NCBI RefSeq assembly: GCF_002197845.1
Contig: NZ_NIDE01000017.1
Location: forward strand, 1,038,712-1,102,711
DNA length: 64,000 nucleotides
Direction of reading: 5' to 3'
DNA from: Fimbriiglobus ruber
GTDB lineage: Bacteria > Planctomycetota > Planctomycetia > Gemmatales > Gemmataceae
Shown here: piece by piece, positions 6,484 through 63,785 of the stretch
How the letters are laid out: the number at the start of each line of letters is the position of its first letter
Position numbering within the stretch: the first letter of the stretch is position 1
Translations under genes and position numbers: made by a program
The notes under the pieces: model-generated
Databases searched by the model: none
What the model was told of the DNA's origin: nothing
Seen by the model: only the letters and a program-made list of their open reading frames with translations

Positions 6484-9400
6484 TTGCGTACCTCACGCAC
6501 TCAACTGCTGGCGCCCCCACATGCCGGGGTCATTCATGCCACGTGTATACCCTTCGTAATCTGCCTGTTGCTGCTCGGCACGAGTACGCGGCAGGTGTCG
6601 GCGGCCGAACTCGACCTGCCCTACAAGGTCGGCGTCGGCAAAGTCGACATCACGCCTGCCCACCCGATCCGGCTGAACGGGTTCGGCTTCCGTCGCACCG
6701 AATCGGCCGGTACTTACCAGAAGATCTGGGTGCGGGCACTGGCCATCAAGCCGGCCGACCAGCCGCCGGTCGTTCTGCTGACGGTCGACGTACTCGGCAT
6801 CCCGGCCGACGTGTACGGGGAACTCGTCCGCCGGTTGGGGAAGGACGGCCTGAGCCGGGAGCGGCTCATGATCGCTGCCACGCACACGCACACCGGACCA
6901 ATGCTCACCGGGGCGAACCCGACCCTTTTCGGCATGCCGATCGCGAAGGACCAGCAGCAGCACATCGACCAGTACACGGCCGTTTTCGTGAACAAGCTCG
7001 AAGAGGCCGCCCGCGCCGCGCTCAAAGACCTGCGCCCGGCGCGGCTGGAGTGGGGCGTCGGGTCGGTGGGGTTCGCGATGAACCGGCGGACCAAGGGCGG
7101 CGTGGTCGACCACGACTTGCCGCTGCTCGTCGTTCGCGGCGCCGACAAGGAAATTCGGGCCGTCTACCTGAACTACGCTTGCCACGCCGTCACCCTCTCC
7201 GAGAACAAGATCGGTGGGGACTGGCCCGGGTATGCCGGGGCCGCTCTCGAAGACGCACTTCCCGGGGCGACAGCCCTCGTCGCGGTCGGCTGCGGGGCGG
7301 ACCAGAATCCCAATTCGGGCGTGACCGGCGCCAAGGAGGACGTGGCCGCCGCGCAGGGCCGCACGGTCGGGGCCGAGGTGCGCCGCCTTGTCGCCAGCCC
7401 GCTGACTGAAGTCCGCGGCCCGATCACCACCCGACTCACGACCCTCGACCTCCCGCTCGCGGCCTTGCCCACCCGCGCCGAGTGGGAGCGCCGGGCCCAG
7501 AAGACCGACTACCTCGGCAACCACGCCCGCGTCAATCTGGCCCGGCTCGACCGTGGCGAGAAACTGTCGACTTCGATCTCGTACCCCGTCCAGACGTGGG
7601 CATTCGGTGACTCGCTGGCCATGGTCCACCTGGCCGGCGAGGTGGTCGTCGATTATTCCCGCCGGCTCAAGGCCGAACTCGATGGCCGTCGCGTCTGGAC
7701 GACCGCTTACGCGAACGCCGCCCCGTGCTACATCCCGAGCGAGCGCGTCCTCAAGGAAGGCGGGTACGAGGGCGGCGGCGCAATGTGGGCTTACGACCAG
7801 CCCGCGCCCTTCGCACCCGGCCTGGAAGACAAGATCGTCGCGGCCGTAACGGGCCAGATCGGAAAGACCTTCGCGGCCACGTTTAACGCCAACAAGACCG
7901 GCGGCACCCGCCCGCTCTCCCCGCACCAGTCGCTCGCGCTCATGCGGTCGCGGCCCGGCACGCGGGTCGAACTGGTCGCGGGCGAACCGCTCGTCGCCGA
8001 CCCGGTCGCCCTCGCGTTCGGGCCGGACGGGAAGGTCTGGGTTGCCGAGATGGGCGACTACCCGAGCGGCCGTACTGACGGCCAGTTCGACCCGGGCGGC
8101 CGCGTCGTCGTACTCCAAGATCGCGACGGCGACGGCACGCTGGACACCTCGACCGTCTTCCTCGACAAGCTCCCGTTCCCCACCGGCCTGCTGCCGTGGC
8201 GTAATGGCGTGTTGGTCTGCGCCGCCCCGGACATCCTTTACGCCGAAGACACCGACGGCGACGGCAAAGCCGACAAGGTCACGAAGCTCTACTCCGGCTT
8301 CGGCACGCAAAACTACCAGGCGCGCGTGAACAGCCTCCAGTATGGGTTGGACGGCTGGGTCTACGGCTCGTGCGGCCTGTTCGGCGGGAACATCCTCTGC
8401 CACCGTACCGGCAAGACGGTCGCACTCGGCGACCGCGACTTCCGCATCAAGCCCGATACCGGCGATCTCGAACCCGTCACCGGCCGGACCCAACAGGGCC
8501 GCGTCCGCGACGACCAGGGGAACTGGTTCGGCTGCGACAACGGCACACTGATCCGCCACTACGCGATGGACGACCACTACCTCCGCCGGAACCCGGCCGT
8601 GGCCTTTCCCAACGGCAGCGTCGGCATCCTCGACGGCGACCCGCGACACCTGTTCCCGCTGAAGGCCGACGCCCAGCGGTTCGCCCTGTCCGGGCCGCCG
8701 GACACCGTGACCGCCGCGTGCGGCGTCGGGATCTACCGCGACGACCTGCTCGGGCCGGGCTTCGCCGGCAACTCCTTCACCTGCGAGCCGGTCAACCTGC
8801 TCGTCCACCGACGGCAACTGCACCCTCACGGAACCACGTTCACCGCCTCCCGCGCGGCCGACGAGACGGCGGGCGAATTCCTCGCTTCGACCGACCCGTG
8901 GTTCCGCCCGGTCCACGCCGTCACCGGGCCGGACGGCGGCATCTGGGTGGCGGCCATGTACCGCTTCCTCATCGAACACCCCCGTTGGGTGCCGCCCGCC
9001 GAGTTGGCGAAGATCGACCCGCGGGCCGGAGCCGGCCTGGGCCGGATCTACCGCGTCTGCCCGGAGGGCCGACCCCTCCGCCGGTGGGAGCGGCTCGACA
9101 AGTTCGACACGGCCGGGTTGGTCGAAGCGCTGGACAGCCCGAACGGCTGGCAGCGCGACGCCGCGATGATGCAACTCGTCTGGAAGGCCGACCCAAAGTC
9201 GGTTCCCGGACTCGAAAAGCTCCTGACCGGCTCCCCTCATCCGCTCGCCCGGCTCCAGGCTCTTTGCACGCTGGACCAACTCGGCCGCCTGACGCCCGCC
9301 ACTATCACAGCCGTGCTGGGCGACAAAGATCCTGCCGTTCGCCGGCACGCGGTCCGCACGGCGGAAGCGCGCTTCGCGGACGATCGTTCCCTGGCCCCCG

Positions 9401-57434: not shown

Positions 57435-59021
57435 ATGGGGCTTGATCTGTTAGATCGCGTCGATTTTCTCAGGCTGGATGCCAATCAGAAGCTTCAGAAA
57501 AGCCGAAACACGGACTGGGGACAATTCCTCACGCCCGCACCGGTTGCTCGCATGCTGGCGGCTCTCATCGTGAATCGAAGAAGAGAGGTTCGCATACTTG
57601 ATGCAGGCGCTGGTTCGGGGTCGCTGTTCGCCGCCGCCGTTGGTGAACTCTGCCAGCGGACGCACAAACCGAACTCGATTTACGTTTCCGCATATGAGAT
57701 CGATCCAGCCCTCGCCGCCTACCTACCGGACACCTTCGCGTTCTGCGATGCGGCCTGTCGCGCGGCAGGTGTTGCGTTCCTTTCGCAATCCTTTGAGGGA
57801 GATTTTCTGGCAGCCGTTTCGCCGCACTTGACGGATGGCTTGGTCGCATCCGATGACTTCCCGCTCTTCGATCTGGCAATTCTCAACCCCCCCTACAAGA
57901 AGATCAATGCCGAGTCCCATGCGCGACACATGCTCGCCGGGATGGGTATCGAAACGACGAACCTCTACACGGGTTTCATGGCCGTTGTGGTTCGGCTCCT
58001 GGCACCGGGCGGTGAGTTGGTGGCGATCACTCCTCGGAGTTTCTGCAACGGGAGCTACTTTCGATCCTTCAGGAAATCCTTCCTGACCGAAATGCGGCTG
58101 CGCACTCTGCACGTCTTCGAGTCTCGTCATCGAGCGTTCCGCGAGGACGATGTACTGCAGGAGAACGTGATTCTGCACGCGACAAAGGGCGGCAGCAGGG
58201 GGAAGGTGTGTATAGTTTCGAGCAGTGGGCCAGAAGACGAATTACCGCTCGCTCGCCAGGTAAAATATGCTGAGGTGGTGCGGCCGGACGACCCGCAGGC
58301 GTTCATCCACATTGCGGCTGACGATTTGGGCAACCGGGTAGCGGCATCGTTGGCCGGATTTCAGGCGAGCCTCCAAGATTTGGGACTGACGGTTTCGACT
58401 GGGCGGGTGGTAGACTTCCGGGCCAAAGATTACTTACGGCAAAATCCCGAAAAGGGGACCGTGCCGCTCATTTGGCCGACGCATTTCGATCGCGGATATA
58501 TCGCATGGCCCAAGATCGGTTCTAAAAAGCCCGAGGCCATCTTGAATGATGTTTCCGTTCGAAGCCAGCTATTGCCCAACGAGAACTACGTCTTAGTACG
58601 GCGGTTTTCTTCAAAGGAAGAGAAGCGGCGGGTCGTCGCTGCGGTTTACGAGGCGTCTAGGATTCCGAGTGATGCAGTAGGATTCGAGAATCACCTGAAT
58701 TATTTCCATCACGGCGGCCGCGGATTCGATCTTCCCCTTGCAAAGGGGCTGGCGATATTTCTCAACTCGACGCTTGTTGACGTGTATCTCAGGCAGTTTA
58801 ATGGGCACACCCAGGTGAACGCCACCGACCTGCGAAGTCTCCGATATCCGTCGGTCGAGCAACTCCGACGACTTGGGGACAACGTCAGCAATATGTTCCC
58901 GGCGCAATCGGAAGTGGATACACTGCTCTCGAAGGAACTCAACATGCCAGACGATCAGGGAATCGACTCAGTGAAAGTGAAGAAGAAAGTCGTTCGGGGT
59001 AGTAGTGGACGAGTACGGTAA
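57435..59021 (+). CDS. Eco57I-type N6-adenine DNA methyltransferase
   Basis: A 528-residue class I DNA methyltransferase. Motif X-like GQFLTP lies at residues 29-34, the SAM-binding motif I ILDAGAGSGSL at 54-64, and the catalytic motif IV NPPY at 151-154 (N6-adenine type). LLAPGGELVAITPRSFCNGS at about 190-210 fits motif VI and VIII blocks. The C-terminal half (about 290-500) should read the DNA target. Such methylases work with a cognate nuclease in type II restriction or alone in defence islands. The usual endonuclease gene is not next to it; a DUF262 gene is. GGTGGGGG precedes the ATG. GC is lower than in the core genes, suggesting transfer. Confidence 0.87.
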   Translation: MGLDLLDRVDFLRLDANQKLQKSRNTDWGQFLTPAPVARMLAALIVNRRREVRILDAGAGSGSLFAAAVGELCQRTHKPNSIYVSAYEIDPALAAYLPDTFAFCDAACRAAGVAFLSQSFEGDFLAAVSPHLTDGLVASDDFPLFDLAILNPPYKKINAESHARHMLAGMGIETTNLYTGFMAVVVRLLAPGGELVAITPRSFCNGSYFRSFRKSFLTEMRLRTLHVFESRHRAFREDDVLQENVILHATKGGSRGKVCIVSSSGPEDELPLARQVKYAEVVRPDDPQAFIHIAADDLGNRVAASLAGFQASLQDLGLTVSTGRVVDFRAKDYLRQNPEKGTVPLIWPTHFDRGYIAWPKIGSKKPEAILNDVSVRSQLLPNENYVLVRRFSSKEEKRRVVAAVYEASRIPSDAVGFENHLNYFHHGGRGFDLPLAKGLAIFLNSTLVDVYLRQFNGHTQVNATDLRSLRYPSVEQLRRLGDNVSNMFPAQSEVDTLLSKELNMPDDQGIDSVKVKKKVVRGSSGRVR

Positions 59022-59268
59022 GATGCCCGACGTGATCGTTCACTACACTGAGAACAACTGACTAGTGTTGTCGAGACTGTCACCTCCCGCGGGCCGGTGG
59101 ATGGCAAGCCGCGGGTTGAGCTGAGCGGTCAGCTACCTCAACATGATCGCCCAAGAGACCGAAGTGTGGGTTGCTGAAACGTCGATCCACATGATTCATT
59201 TCAATGGCAAGCGGTCTTTGACACCGTCTTAAGCCTACCTGGCCCGCGCTTGGCAGCCGGAGATGCAG

Positions 59269-60342
59269 ATGCAACGACGTCCCACATCCCAGGATATCAG
59301 CTGGTTTCTCGACCTGAAACGTGCTGATCAGATCGAATTAAACCCGCCATACCAGAGGCGGAGCGTGTGGAATTTGAAGGACAGAAGGTTCTTTCTCGAC
59401 ACCGTCTTCCGGGGGTATCCGTCTCCGCCAATCTTTCTGCATAAAACGATGAATGCTGCCCAGCAGACGATTTATGCAGTTGTGGACGGGAAGCAGCGGC
59501 TACAAACACTGTTCATGTTCGCGAACAACGAGATCTCTCTGCCCGGCGATTTCGGTAACGATCGCTTGGATGGCAAGAGTTGGGAGCAACTGCAACCGGA
59601 CGAGCGACAGATTTTCTGGAACTACGTGGTACTGGTAGAGTTCCTGACGTTTAACGCCAATGACCCACACGACGTAAACCAAGCATTCGATCGACTCAAT
59701 CGGAACATGCGTAAGCTAGAGCCACAAGAACTCAGGCATGCCAGGTGGGACGGCTGGTTTATTAAGTTGGTAGAATCGGAAGCTGAAGACGTTGCCTGGC
59801 AGAAACTGGGCGTAGTGACTAAGGCACGCACCACCCGAATGAAGGATGTGCAATTCATTTCCGAGCTGGTCTTGGTAATTATCGAGGGCAAGATCCTCGG
59901 ATTTGAGCAGCAAGATCTTGATGCTGCCTACGCCAAATACGACGACCCTGAAGAGCTTGAAGAACCCATCGATACCGACGACGTAAAGGATAAGATTAGT
60001 GATGTCAAACAGTATCTTTTGGACATGCAGGATACAAACGGGTGCGTGAAGCGGATCTCGACGAACTTGGGTGTCTTCTACACCCTATGGGCAATCGTTA
60101 GCTTACATATGGGCAAGCTTCCCTTAGCACCGGATCTCGCTCGTAAATTCGTGACATTCAAAGAGGCTGTGGATACTTTCAACGACTCTACCGAGAAGGC
60201 GATTTTGCTTTCCGGGGTGGACGCTGCAAAATACAAACTGGCAGAGGAGTTCCTCCAGGGGTACAGGGCGAACACCGACTACACACCTAGGTTGAAGCGG
60301 CAACAGGCTCTGCTTGCCTATATTGAGGGGGTCGCAACATGA
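59269..60342 (+). CDS. DUF262 (GmrSD N-terminal-like) protein
   Basis: About 357 residues. The ATG at 59269 is preferred over 59263 because GGAG sits six bases upstream of it. DUF262 hallmarks are the NPPYQRRSVW block (about residues 26-34) and VDGKQRLQTL (about 72-81), the D-G-x-Q-R NTP-binding motif of the GmrS-type ParB/sulfiredoxin-like fold. In type IV GmrSD enzymes this domain hydrolyses NTP and is fused to a DUF1524 HNH nuclease. Here no H-N-H block is visible after it, so the protein may lack nuclease activity. A long acidic middle segment (EELEEPIDTDDVKDKISD) is unusual. Its stop overlaps the next start (ATGA), so it is co-translated with the RelA/SpoT-like gene. Confidence 0.85.
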   Translation: MQRRPTSQDISWFLDLKRADQIELNPPYQRRSVWNLKDRRFFLDTVFRGYPSPPIFLHKTMNAAQQTIYAVVDGKQRLQTLFMFANNEISLPGDFGNDRLDGKSWEQLQPDERQIFWNYVVLVEFLTFNANDPHDVNQAFDRLNRNMRKLEPQELRHARWDGWFIKLVESEAEDVAWQKLGVVTKARTTRMKDVQFISELVLVIIEGKILGFEQQDLDAAYAKYDDPEELEEPIDTDDVKDKISDVKQYLLDMQDTNGCVKRISTNLGVFYTLWAIVSLHMGKLPLAPDLARKFVTFKEAVDTFNDSTEKAILLSGVDAAKYKLAEEFLQGYRANTDYTPRLKRQQALLAYIEGVAT

Positions 60343-61370
60343 AAGTCCCTCAATCGGTACGCATGCTCTATGGCGATCTAGAGCCTCAATTCTCTAAGCT
60401 AAAGGTTGAGGTTGATCGGATTATCATAGGCAAGAAACAGCTCCGTTGGCACTACGAAAGCCGAGTCAAGGAAGAGATTAGTTTCGCCTTAAAATTGGAA
60501 ACGGGACGTGTACGCAAACCAGTAGACCCAGAAGACTTATTCGCATGCACTCTTGTCGTTGAAAACCGAAGCAAGATCGCCGAGGCGGAAGCACTAATTA
60601 TGACACTGTTCAAACTGGAACAGCGCCGCCCTAAGGACCAGACTTTCACACATATTGCTCCTCATAGTTTCGATTTCGACGATCTACGACTGTATGTTCG
60701 CTGGACCGATGCGGGTGGCAAACCCTCAGGGTTGGATGGATTGCAATTTGAAGTGCAGGTCAAGACCTTTCTCCAGCACGCATGGGGGATTGCCACTCAC
60801 GATTTTGTTTATAAAAGCGACGATGTAGATTGGTCTGGCAGCCGGATAGCCTATCAGGTAAAAGCGATGCTGGAGAATGCCGAACTCTCGATCGCTGAGG
60901 CTCAGACGCTCGCGACTTCCGCAATGTTGAACCGAATCGACGGTGAGTGCAAAGGCCTGCGGATAATGATCGGTGAGATTAAGAAGCGATGGGAGCCCGC
61001 CCGCCTACCGAAAGACTTACGTCGATTGGCGCAGACGCTTGGGGAGTTATTGCAGGCGCTGGACATGAGCTTTAATGATATGTGGGCGTTCGTAGATGAG
61101 GCAACCGCCGCGGGTGAAGGTGCGAAAACTCTTAACCTGTCTCCATACAGTGCGGTCGTCGCGGCCCTGCTACGCAAGCGAGGAGCAGCAACCCTATTTG
61201 GTCCACTCGGTAAGCCGTGGAATAAACGGTCGCTATTCGTCCCATTAGAGATCGACTTGCCTGCCCTTCCTGATGCGGTACAACGTAAGTTGATCCGCCC
61301 CAAGGATGTCACTGGCCCTGCTCCTGGAGTGGTTGTCACTCCTAGTGCTCCCCCTGTCATAGGCGCGTAG
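60339..61370 (+). CDS. Divergent RelA/SpoT-type nucleotide synthetase-like protein
   Basis: A 343-residue protein whose ATG overlaps the DUF262 stop. Residues about 20-160 match the RelA/SpoT synthetase fold: SRVKEEISFALK has R42, K44 and K52 at the spacing of the ATP-binding R-x-K-x7-K motif; PEDLFACTLVV keeps the Mg-ligand-type Asp66 but has A-C-T where G-x-R is usual; FEVQVKT (E138) and QHAWGIATHD (H147, H154) match E-x-Q-x-R-T and Q-H-A-W. The GYRSxH pyrophosphate-acceptor loop with its Tyr is not visible. Residues about 165-260 are helical, and the tail is Pro-rich. It could make an alarmone, modify tRNA or another nucleotide, or be inactive. GAGGGGG precedes the ATG. Confidence 0.75.
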   Translation: MKVPQSVRMLYGDLEPQFSKLKVEVDRIIIGKKQLRWHYESRVKEEISFALKLETGRVRKPVDPEDLFACTLVVENRSKIAEAEALIMTLFKLEQRRPKDQTFTHIAPHSFDFDDLRLYVRWTDAGGKPSGLDGLQFEVQVKTFLQHAWGIATHDFVYKSDDVDWSGSRIAYQVKAMLENAELSIAEAQTLATSAMLNRIDGECKGLRIMIGEIKKRWEPARLPKDLRRLAQTLGELLQALDMSFNDMWAFVDEATAAGEGAKTLNLSPYSAVVAALLRKRGAATLFGPLGKPWNKRSLFVPLEIDLPALPDAVQRKLIRPKDVTGPAPGVVVTPSAPPVIGA

Positions 61371-61533
61371 CTGTCATCGCTCCTCCAGGGACGACACGGC
61401 GAAAACCATGACTCTGGGCCGTTTGGAAGCTTTCCTACGAATCGAGGTTCAAGGAGTTCAGCAATTTGGGACCGAACATCACTGGTTTCCAGAATCCTGT
61501 CATATCCCTCCCTCTCGAACGCGAGGGCACGCG

Positions 61534-62652
61534 ATGTTGTACGTCTCCCTATTCGGCTCCTGTGTCTTGCAAGTGGTCATCTGCCGTGCCCTTCTGCAGC
61601 GCGAGAAGCCGGGCTGGTACATCTTTTGGTCCTCGCTGGCCGCCATCATTTTGCCCCAATGCCTGCTGTCATTTTTCCCAGTCGTGGCAATCCAGGCTGT
61701 GTTCGCGATTATTGCGCTCGTATTCCTGGACGTTCCAAGACACGGCAAACGCCTGTACCTGGCGGGAACATTTGTCGTAATGATTGCCGCGTGGGCCGTC
61801 GTGCTCTTCTATGCGGTCGAAAAGCAGAATTGGTATGCCGATGCCCGCGGCCGCTTTCCGCTCGAGTCGCTCGCCGACCGCCTGCCGCCCAGCGCATCCC
61901 GTTATGCTCCCTCAAAACCCGACGACGAAAAACGCCTGGAGAATCTAGAATCTGACGCCCTGTTACACTCTTTTCAACGCGAATACGCTCTTCGGCAGTT
62001 GCACGAAAACCAAGTGAATCTGTTCGTGAACAGCCCCGGATTCGGCGTGATGCGGGTGTCCCTGGGACCCTCGCTGGAATCGCTCGAAAAATGGCATCGC
62101 ACCGATACTCCGGTCACGATGCCGGGCGTTCTGGCGTCGCCGGCACGGGGTCAATCGCCCGAAGTCATTCCGGCGTCGCCGGCACGGGGTCAATCGCCCG
62201 AAGTCATTCCGGCGGATCTGGACGAGTTGCACTTTTGGGGGGTAGTCGACTTCGTCCACTCGGGCGGGTTCGGGTATATCCGAGACCGGGGGCATGTCGC
62301 CGGATTCGAGCCCCACGGTATGTCCAGAATTCCCGACCCGTCTCGACTGGGGTGGACGGTCGGAACGGTCGAGTTAATCGGCTTGCTGCGGGAAACGCCA
62401 GTCGTGTACGTGTCGCCCAACCTGCCACGGATGAGTGAGCTTCGTGCCGCCCCGACGCGCCCGCTCGACCCGTTCGAAACGAACGGCGTGGCCGCTCTTA
62501 TAGCCGGGAAGGACATTGTCACCGAGCCGACCGAGTCCGGGGCGCGGATGGTCGGCTCGATCCGGGCAGCCAAACAGTGTCTCGCTTGCCACGAGGGCAG
62601 CCGCGGTGATTTGCTCGGGGCCTTTTCCTACTCTCTCAACCCCGCGCGATAA
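61534..62652 (+). CDS. Membrane protein with C-terminal CxxCH haem-c site
   Basis: About 372 residues from the ATG at 61534 (an upstream frame to 61408 lacks support). Residues 1-110 have about four hydrophobic segments (LYVSLFGSCVLQVVICRALL and others). The large C-terminal part should be outside the cytoplasm and ends with AKQCLACHEGSRGDLLGAFSY, a single haem-c site C-x-x-C-H. Two copies of a 39-bp unit (62134-62211) encode repeated ASPARGQSPEVIP. GC is back to core level. Possible membrane-bound cytochrome-like redox protein; family not recognised. Confidence 0.65.
   Translation: MLYVSLFGSCVLQVVICRALLQREKPGWYIFWSSLAAIILPQCLLSFFPVVAIQAVFAIIALVFLDVPRHGKRLYLAGTFVVMIAAWAVVLFYAVEKQNWYADARGRFPLESLADRLPPSASRYAPSKPDDEKRLENLESDALLHSFQREYALRQLHENQVNLFVNSPGFGVMRVSLGPSLESLEKWHRTDTPVTMPGVLASPARGQSPEVIPASPARGQSPEVIPADLDELHFWGVVDFVHSGGFGYIRDRGHVAGFEPHGMSRIPDPSRLGWTVGTVELIGLLRETPVVYVSPNLPRMSELRAAPTRPLDPFETNGVAALIAGKDIVTEPTESGARMVGSIRAAKQCLACHEGSRGDLLGAFSYSLNPAR
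62134..62211 (+). repeat. 39-bp in-frame tandem repeat, two copies
   Basis: Units 62134-62172 and 62173-62211 are identical, and each encodes ASPARGQSPEVIP in the gene at 61534-62652. Confidence 0.95.
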
Positions 62653-62759
62653 CCCGCGCCAAGCCCGTATTGACACCCCCAGCCGGCTCGCTACTCTTCC
62701 CCGCCAAACTACCCGACCGGCCACGACGGTGCGGGCGGAACACGGCAGGGGAGTCGGAC

Positions 62760-63785
62760 ATGGCACAGGCGGCCGGGGCACCCGCGGCGGACCAGGACGC
62801 AGACCGCGAGACCGTGCGCACGGTCTACGACGGCGCCCGCGGGCGGATGTTCCAGGCCAAGGCCGAGGACGCGCTCGCGTCCCCGACGCTCGCCCGCTGG
62901 CTGGGAAAGATCCAGCTCGTATTCACGTCCCCGCCGTTTCCGCTCCAGCGAAAGAAGAAGTACGGCAACCTCTGCGGCGACGAATACACTGCCTGGCTCG
63001 CCGGGTTCGCCCCGAAACTCAAGGAGTTTCTCACGCCAGACGGGTCGATCGTGATCGAACTCGGGAACGGGTGGAACGCGAACGAGCCGACCGTGTCGAC
63101 GGCCGCGATCAAGGCGCTCATCGCCTTCCAGGAGGCGGCCGGGTTGTACTTGTGTCAAGAATTTATTTGCTTCAACCCGGCCCGCCTGCCGACCCCGATC
63201 GAGTGGGTGGCCGTGCGGCGGACGCGGGTGAAGGACGCGTTCACGCGGGTCTGGTGGATGTCCCCGACCCCGCACCCGAAGGCGGACAACCGCCGCGTCC
63301 TGACGGAATACAGCGCGAGCATGCAGCGGCTGTTGAAGAAGGGCACGTACACCGGCGGCCGTCGGCCGTCCGAACACACGATCGGCGAGCGGTCGTTCCT
63401 GTCCGACAACGGCGGGGCGATCCCGCCGAACGTGCTCATCCCGCCAGGCAGCGAGGCGGCCGCGCTCGACGCCGTGCTGCCGATCCCGAACACGGTGAGC
63501 GGAGACAAGTACCACCGTGCCTGCCGGGACAACGGGCTGGCGCGGCACCCGGCACTCATGCCCGAGGCACTGGTCGAGTTCTTCGTCCGGTTCCTGACCG
63601 AAGAAGGCGACGTGGTCCTCGACCCGTTCGCCGGCAGCAACACGACCGGGGCGGTGGCCGAGCGGCTGGGCCGCAAGTGGGTCGCGGTCGAAGCTAACGC
63701 GGCCTACGCGGACACGTCCCGCGTCCGCTTCGACCCGCCGCACCCCACCCCGGCCGGCCCGAAGCGGCGCGGGCCGAAGGCGTAA
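62760..63785 (+). CDS. SPPF-type DNA methyltransferase (N4C/N6A beta-class)
   Basis: A 341-residue protein from the ATG at 62760. Motif IV FTSPPF near residue 56 is placed before motif I-like DPFAGSNTTGAVAERLG (about residues 287-303), the order of beta-class amino-methyltransferases; SPPF points to N4-cytosine or N6-adenine. The C-terminal KWVAVEANAAYADTSRVRF continues the SAM-binding region. The middle segment (about 110-250) should be the target-recognition domain. No nuclease gene is beside it within the window. GC is core-like. It is followed by a terminator hairpin. Confidence 0.87.
   Translation: MAQAAGAPAADQDADRETVRTVYDGARGRMFQAKAEDALASPTLARWLGKIQLVFTSPPFPLQRKKKYGNLCGDEYTAWLAGFAPKLKEFLTPDGSIVIELGNGWNANEPTVSTAAIKALIAFQEAAGLYLCQEFICFNPARLPTPIEWVAVRRTRVKDAFTRVWWMSPTPHPKADNRRVLTEYSASMQRLLKKGTYTGGRRPSEHTIGERSFLSDNGGAIPPNVLIPPGSEAAALDAVLPIPNTVSGDKYHRACRDNGLARHPALMPEALVEFFVRFLTEEGDVVLDPFAGSNTTGAVAERLGRKWVAVEANAAYADTSRVRFDPPHPTPAGPKRRGPKA

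Follow-up and report, generated by a model that had tools for sequence, protein, structure and literature searches.

A RelA/SpoT-fold protein with an altered acceptor site is paired with a DUF262 protein at restriction-modification loci and may be part of a defence module

Two groups of proteins come close to the genes described here. Among proteins with the RelA/SpoT synthetase fold, CapRel and FaRel2 pyrophosphorylate tRNA, and CapRel takes part in phage defence (PMC9712102, PMC11782079). In the FaRel2 structure, R64, K66, S70 and K74 bind the ATP phosphates and D90 binds Mg, while the adenine is sandwiched by R64 and R95 and contacted by E145, and the acceptor base is held by Y128; the Y128F replacement impairs the protein (PMC11782079). 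Among DUF262-containing proteins, GmrSD and BrxU target modified DNA and SspE reads phosphorothioate DNA, with NTPs being either hydrolyzed or responded to, and PD-T4-2 combines DUF262 with HEPN (PMC10952713).

The locus analyzed here brings members of both groups together. In the window, by which we mean the whole stretch of 64,000 nucleotides, an intact DNA methyltransferase (MTase) gene is followed by a gene for a DUF262 protein and then by one for a RelA/SpoT-fold protein (REL), all on the + strand. The preliminary description dealt with REL, and the open reading frame it reported is real, as are the positions it gave for R42, K44, K52, D66 and E138. The larger fact missing from it is that REL is one half of a conserved DUF262 and RelA/SpoT pair at restriction-modification loci. 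The features are as follows.

57435..59021, + strand: MTase, an intact N6-adenine DNA methyltransferase (Eco57I/type II family) of 528 amino acids (Pfam Eco57I 9e-11, N6_Mtase 1.8e-6; PADLOC MTase_II 1e-162), with a homologue near REL in most loci.
58993..59226, + strand: nuclease remnant, the C-terminal third of a BsuBI/PstI-type restriction endonuclease with frameshifts and stops, its start overlapping the end of the MTase gene (tblastn, profile scores).
59263..60342, + strand: DUF262/GmrSD_N protein of 359 amino acids with a DGKQR nucleotide-binding motif (Pfam GmrSD_N 2e-21), a putative DNA sensor/NTPase.
60339..61370, + strand: REL, a RelA/SpoT-fold protein of 343 amino acids (Pfam RelA_SpoT; AlphaFold; Foldseek and VIA), a putative effector.
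60462..60494, + strand: R42, K44, S48 and K52 of REL, the basic residues for the pyrophosphate donor ATP (conservation; FaRel2 spacing).
60534..60551, + strand: D66-L-F-A-C-T71 of REL, with the Mg-binding Asp retained and Thr in place of the adenine-stacking Arg (conservation; outgroup alignment).
60669..60698, + strand: rewritten acceptor loop of REL, F111-x-F113-D-D-L-R117-L-Y-V, replacing FGYRSxHxIV (conservation; alignment to CapRel and outgroups).
60750..60752, + strand: E138 of REL, the catalytic/adenine-binding Glu within FEVQVKT (invariant in 28/28).
60936..61298, + strand: all-helical C-terminal domain of REL (about residues 200-320) with a conserved NLSPY motif (DSSP of the model; homologue alignment).

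Each of the described systems shares something with this locus, and none matches it throughout. REL has the synthetase fold, the ATP-triphosphate residues, the Mg-binding Asp and the Glu of CapRel (SJ46) and FaRel2, but carries Phe, Thr and Arg where these have the G-loop Tyr, the adenine-stacking Arg and the loop His, contains no YxxY motif (none in 28 REL homologues), and has a DUF262 protein as its partner. The small alarmone synthetases RelQ and RelP are closest to REL in fold (5dec), whereas REL differs from them in its replaced acceptor-site residues, its added helical C-terminal domain and its pairing with DUF262. PD-T4-2 likewise consists of a DUF262 component (PD-T4-2_A) and an effector-type protein, although the partner here has the RelA/SpoT fold instead of HEPN and a DNA methyltransferase accompanies the pair. 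With GmrSD, BrxU and SspE the DUF262 protein shares the ParB/Srx NTPase domain with its DG(Q/K)QR motif, but not the DUF1524 nuclease domain. BsuBI/PstI type II restriction-modification systems have a related MTase and, for many of the loci, a related nuclease too; in the window, however, the nuclease is a remnant, and there are two extra conserved genes, DUF262 and REL.

The assignment of REL to the RelA/SpoT homologue (RSH) superfamily is supported by its Pfam RelA_SpoT domain (E value of 5.8e-7, 30.2 bits, cut-off 27), by the synthetase fold of its model, and by the motif R-x-K-x3-S-x3-K together with the metal-binding Asp and the catalytic Glu. A PDB search with the single REL sequence gave nothing useful and a family profile was needed, with which CapRel was the best sequence match among solved structures. 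In an AlphaFold model based on 28 homologues (mean pLDDT 88.5), REL adopts the synthetase fold, which bears out the RelA/SpoT likeness put forward in the preliminary description: Foldseek returned 58 PDB matches at E<=0.001, and the best 50 of the 58 were all RelQ, RelP, CapRel, Rel, FaRel2 or close relatives, while VIA superimposed the model on RelQ (5dec; Z 16.6, rmsd 3.4, 180 aligned) and on CapRel (7ztb; Z 13.0, rmsd 2.9, 165 aligned). The VIA matches span residues 1-192, which the model thereby assigns to the alarmone synthetase fold. As to defence catalogues, PADLOC has no system model naming the REL-DUF262 pair, and REL matches only its entry PDC-S33, which 27 of the 28 REL members hit (best 7.7e-11; weakly for the window protein); judged by these matches, a relative of REL has already been catalogued as a candidate family for defence.

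The five residues singled out in the preliminary description (R42, K44, K52, D66 and E138) are 100% conserved in the 28 REL homologues, which come from many phyla, and S48 and T71 reach 96% each. Only 22 of the 130 positions in the REL domain are invariant, and the probability of all five falling among them by chance is about 9e-5. The spacing of R42-K44-S48-K52 equals that of R64-K66-S70-K74 in FaRel2, as had been proposed for the three ATP-binding residues R42, K44 and K52, and the spacing of D66-T71 equals that of D90-R95 (FaRel2 residues from PMC11782079). The residues after D66 indeed read L-F-A-C-T, with A-C-T standing where G-x-R is expected. The acceptor loop, by contrast, is not lacking, as had been thought, but rewritten: in the alignment, F-x-F-D-D-L-R-L-Y-V (111-120) lies opposite F-G-Y-R-S-V-H-Y-I-V, so that the Tyr has become Phe113 and the His Arg117. 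F111, F113 and R117 are invariant in the 28 homologues, and in the family profile R79, R116 and Y155 of CapRel align with R42, T71 and F113 of REL.

As outgroups, RelA/SpoT proteins, housekeeping enzymes included, were collected from genomes that also carry REL and aligned with the REL members. At REL positions 42, 44, 48, 52, 66, 71, 113, 117, 138 and 154 the outgroups read R-K-S-K-D-R-Y-H-E-H (three of the sequences have G or R instead of S at 48), compared to R-K-S-K-D-T-F-R-E-H in the REL members (with L at 71 in one lineage). Three of the ten positions therefore differ: the adenine-stacking Arg is replaced by Thr71, the G-loop Tyr by Phe113 and the His of GYRSxH by Arg117, whereas Arg, Tyr and His occupy these positions in all outgroup sequences examined. 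A remote relative of REL, also paired with DUF262 (L046, from a genome of the window's family), features A, F and R at 71, 113 and 117. The loop His of RelA/SpoT proteins is an acceptor-side residue. Judging from the alignment, the switched residues belong to the adenine sandwich and to the acceptor side, and the donor and catalytic residues are kept. REL thus lacks the three residues that mark a (p)ppGpp synthetase, the Arg of GxR, the Tyr of the G-loop and the His of the loop (T71, F113 and R117 in REL). It equally lacks the G-loop Tyr by which the toxSAS proteins CapRel and FaRel2 bind their acceptor, since Y155 of CapRel and Y128 of FaRel2 correspond to a Phe in REL; proteins of the toxSAS class are toxic and either pyrophosphorylate tRNA or make (pp)pApp. 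With three positions fixed differently and an unchanged donor site, the family amounts to a natural experiment on substrate choice in the RelA/SpoT superfamily.

In close pairs with measurable dS, dN/dS is about 0.06-0.22 for REL and 0.03-0.22 for DUF262, values far below 1 that indicate purifying selection on both genes. Given that the Mg-binding Asp and the catalytic Glu are in addition invariant across many phyla, the sequences speak against REL being a decayed enzyme, and a conserved role as a non-catalytic binder is less likely. The preliminary description had offered two interpretations, a toxic small synthetase that uses a different acceptor or a degenerate enzyme serving as a binding module. 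Neither of the refuting conditions it set applies, as the residues are conserved and the fold is retained; the invariant Asp and Glu and the low dN/dS count against decay.

The pairing with DUF262 is conserved. Wherever REL is intact and the sequence before it reaches far enough, the immediately preceding gene, on the same strand, encodes a DUF262 protein, and the exceptions (L015, L029 and L039) are contig-end or broken copies. The distance from the DUF262 stop to the REL start ranged from -17 to +10 bases in 26 measured cases, with -4 the commonest value; in the window, the REL start overlaps the DUF262 stop codon (ATGA). The two proteins also co-vary, since their distances correlate at 0.84 over 23 loci and none of 2000 permutations reached as high a value. 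In the 20 genomes searched there was one close DUF262 per genome, located at the REL locus. We found no description of a DUF262/GmrSD protein paired with RelA, SpoT or toxSAS in the literature searched, which comprised open-licence papers and lacked most subscription papers, and in which "rela" and "spot" also match ordinary words.

All 30 DUF262 relatives carry the DGKQR motif; none of them has a DHxYP motif, and neither DUF262 nor REL gave a Pfam match to DUF1524/HNH. The DUF262 model is closest to BrxU (E 2.4e-4). In PADLOC, the window protein matches PD-T4-2_A (4e-16), as do all 30 members, and DUF262 also matches NsnA, a word not found in the open-licence literature searched. A YxxY motif occurs in 28 of the 30 DUF262 proteins; the idea that it serves as a toxSAS-style plug against REL was rejected, because the motif is also found in DUF262 relatives without REL and is absent from the remote pair mentioned above (L046, positions 446-2496), whose REL has Ala for Thr71.

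Elsewhere, DUF262 relatives neighbour an HEPN protein (L098), protein kinases (L053, L057) or an FRG protein (L058). This swapping of effector-type partners beside DUF262 points to DUF262 as the sensing component, with REL in the role of effector. Some of these neighbourhoods deserve mention in their own right. On plasmids of a cyanobacterium and of Asticcacaulis, DUF262 is followed by an overlapping protein kinase gene (L053, 3983-6227; L057, 2983-5129), an arrangement that is possibly a DUF262-kinase defence module. The FRG-domain protein is encoded immediately ahead of DUF262 on a Hymenobacter plasmid (L058, 2180-4206), and a 361-residue protein without a Pfam family takes the same place on a viral-collection contig (L096, 2907-5017), where it possibly represents another type of DUF262 partner.

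The third element of these loci is the methyltransferase. A DNA methyltransferase, from more than one family, lies upstream or downstream near REL-DUF262 in 30 loci, and most of the remaining loci are truncated at a contig boundary. Beside the pair, 17 loci have a BsuBI/PstI-type nuclease, whether as a separate protein, as a fusion or only in part, and 14 have an MTase without such a nuclease. Some of these 14 encode another candidate nuclease, such as the type IIG-like protein of L021 and the HNH_2 protein of L027. The window has no functional BsuBI/PstI nuclease beside its MTase, only the frameshifted C-terminal remnant, which matches the C terminus of the fused MTase-REase of a planctomycete (L010) by tblastn with an E value of 8e-18 (40% over 100 columns) and yields profile scores of 14.8 and 11.0, compared to 3.5 for the best of 500 shuffles. 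The remnant disposes of the idea that the window MTase was never accompanied by a nuclease; the locus once had the enzyme and then lost it. The MTase gene and the 702 codons of DUF262 and REL have stayed open beside the broken nuclease, which argues that the pair is not merely an accessory of that enzyme.

Composition suggests that the MTase, DUF262 and REL genes of the window arrived horizontally: GC content is about 50% over DUF262 and REL versus 65-68% on both flanks, and at third codon positions the three genes have a GC fraction of 0.54-0.64 versus 0.69-0.90 in five other measured genes. Downstream of REL lie a gene for an apparently membrane-bound protein without a family match (61408-62652) and a second DNA methyltransferase gene (N6_N4_Mtase, 62670-63785), whose high third-position GC marks it as probably resident and outside the module.

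REL homologues were recovered from plasmids, from 33 loci in genomes of many phyla and from two viral-collection contigs; the viral contigs gave no match when scanned with the single REL protein and two loci when scanned with the alignment. Some of the plasmids carrying the module are conjugative. In the window's class, five of 298 genomes had matches at E<=1e-8, of which at least two (L048, L049) are other RelA/SpoT proteins, so the module appears to be rare and scattered. Mobile elements have also struck the pair itself: in L044 (3264-6972), a resolvase-type (IS607-like) element with its own DNA methylase gene is inserted into DUF262 and REL is open, and on Rhizobium pTi plasmids (L007 and L008, 6349-8630) REL is split by an IS5 element next to intact DUF262 and restriction-modification genes.

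The host is probably a planctomycete-like bacterium. REL is the sole RelA/SpoT-domain protein in the window genome (12.36 Mb, 20 contigs) and the only one shown for the planctomycete genome of L010. RelA/SpoT enzymes have been reported absent from the PVC superphylum (PMC3153485), with which the solitary REL of the window genome agrees if that genome belongs there. Any alarmone-like product of REL would accordingly exert its effect where the usual counterpart enzymes are missing.

We propose that the pair forms a defence module linked to restriction, with DUF262 as the DNA sensor and REL as a toxSAS-like effector with an altered acceptor, a reading to which we assign a probability of about one half. 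DUF262, an NTP-binding protein with the ParB/Srx fold, would survey DNA, probably checking whether it bears the mark set by the neighbouring MTase, and on meeting invading DNA would activate REL. REL, for which an effector role is proposed by analogy to CapRel and FaRel2, would bind MgATP through R42, K44, S48, K52 and D66 and, with E138, transfer pyrophosphate to an acceptor at its 3' hydroxyl, and the outcome would be arrested growth or abortive infection. Since the Arg71, Tyr113 and His117 of ordinary RelA/SpoT proteins are Thr, Phe and Arg in REL, this acceptor is probably neither GTP nor GDP, the usual ones. It is tempting to speculate that the group moved by REL, be it pyrophosphate or some other phosphoryl group, goes to an acceptor new for the superfamily, such as a DNA or RNA 3' end or a cofactor, and that switching by DUF262 would make this a methylation-gated abortive infection with new chemistry; this more specific version is tentative and, as it stands, rather doubtful. 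The signs of phage defence are indirect: methyltransferase and restriction neighbours, mobility, and the relation of DUF262 to defence models. What the sensing model leaves unexplained is that a single DUF262 family would need to read the marks of several different MTases. If the proposal is true, it would connect the chemistry of alarmone synthetases with the restriction-type recognition of foreign DNA, so far known as separate branches of bacterial immunity.

Alternatively, REL could be a nucleotide-binding pseudoenzyme, that is, a catalytically dead sensor that binds ATP and regulates DUF262, the latter being the acting nuclease or nickase of the ParB/Srx type. The lost Arg normally stacks on the adenine of ATP, the Tyr-to-Phe change corresponds to the Y128F replacement that impairs FaRel2 (PMC11782079), the His is replaced as well, all 30 DUF262 proteins keep DGKQR, and ParB/Srx proteins can nick DNA (PMC12839542). 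However, D66 and E138, which serve metal binding and catalysis, have stayed invariant over great divergence, the likewise invariant F113 and R117 look like a changed function and not like decay, and DUF262 has no HNH/DUF1524 motif, all of which makes a dead sensor somewhat improbable. The overlapping two-gene operon with DUF262 first, the plasmid carriage, and the fact that antitoxins adjoin toxSAS toxins (PMC11782079) would also suit a toxin-antitoxin pair, in which DUF262 neutralizes a toxSAS-like REL and the two act as an addiction element of restriction-modification loci. Yet a plain antitoxin would not need the invariant nucleotide motif of DUF262, the YxxY motif, general to relatives without REL and missing in L046, is not evidence for a plug, and L044 keeps REL open despite its split DUF262. 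If REL is expressed there, this arrangement fits DUF262 as an activator better than as an antitoxin, and we regard an addiction pair as unlikely.

A BsuBI/PstI-type nuclease is retained in roughly half of the loci, so the pair could instead be an accessory that tunes or backs up the restriction enzyme of the neighbouring type II system without a defence action of its own. Such a helper is difficult to reconcile with the 14 loci that have an MTase but no such nuclease, with the differing families of the MTases near the pair, and with the window, where DUF262 and REL are intact next to a nuclease remnant; we consider it quite unlikely. Least probable by far is that REL is an ordinary (p)ppGpp synthetase of unusual sequence: the fold and the donor site would allow it, but the Arg, Tyr and His of every outgroup examined are all replaced. 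The defence module sketched above remains our preferred reading.

Several canonical RelA/SpoT proteins were encountered along the way. An 8.1-kb filamentous Vibrio phage (L009, PQ189320.1) carries at 6571-7581, apparently as cargo, a gene resembling canonical small alarmone synthetases with R, Y and H intact, annotated as "Nucleotidyltransferase". Open frames of more than 700 amino acids with a canonical RelA/SpoT domain near the N terminus were seen in L002 (1333-3468) and L003 (1-2253). In a genome of the window's class (L004, 2-1686), the gene for a 358-residue protein of unknown family overlaps that of a small synthetase with canonical motifs, which looks like another two-gene module.
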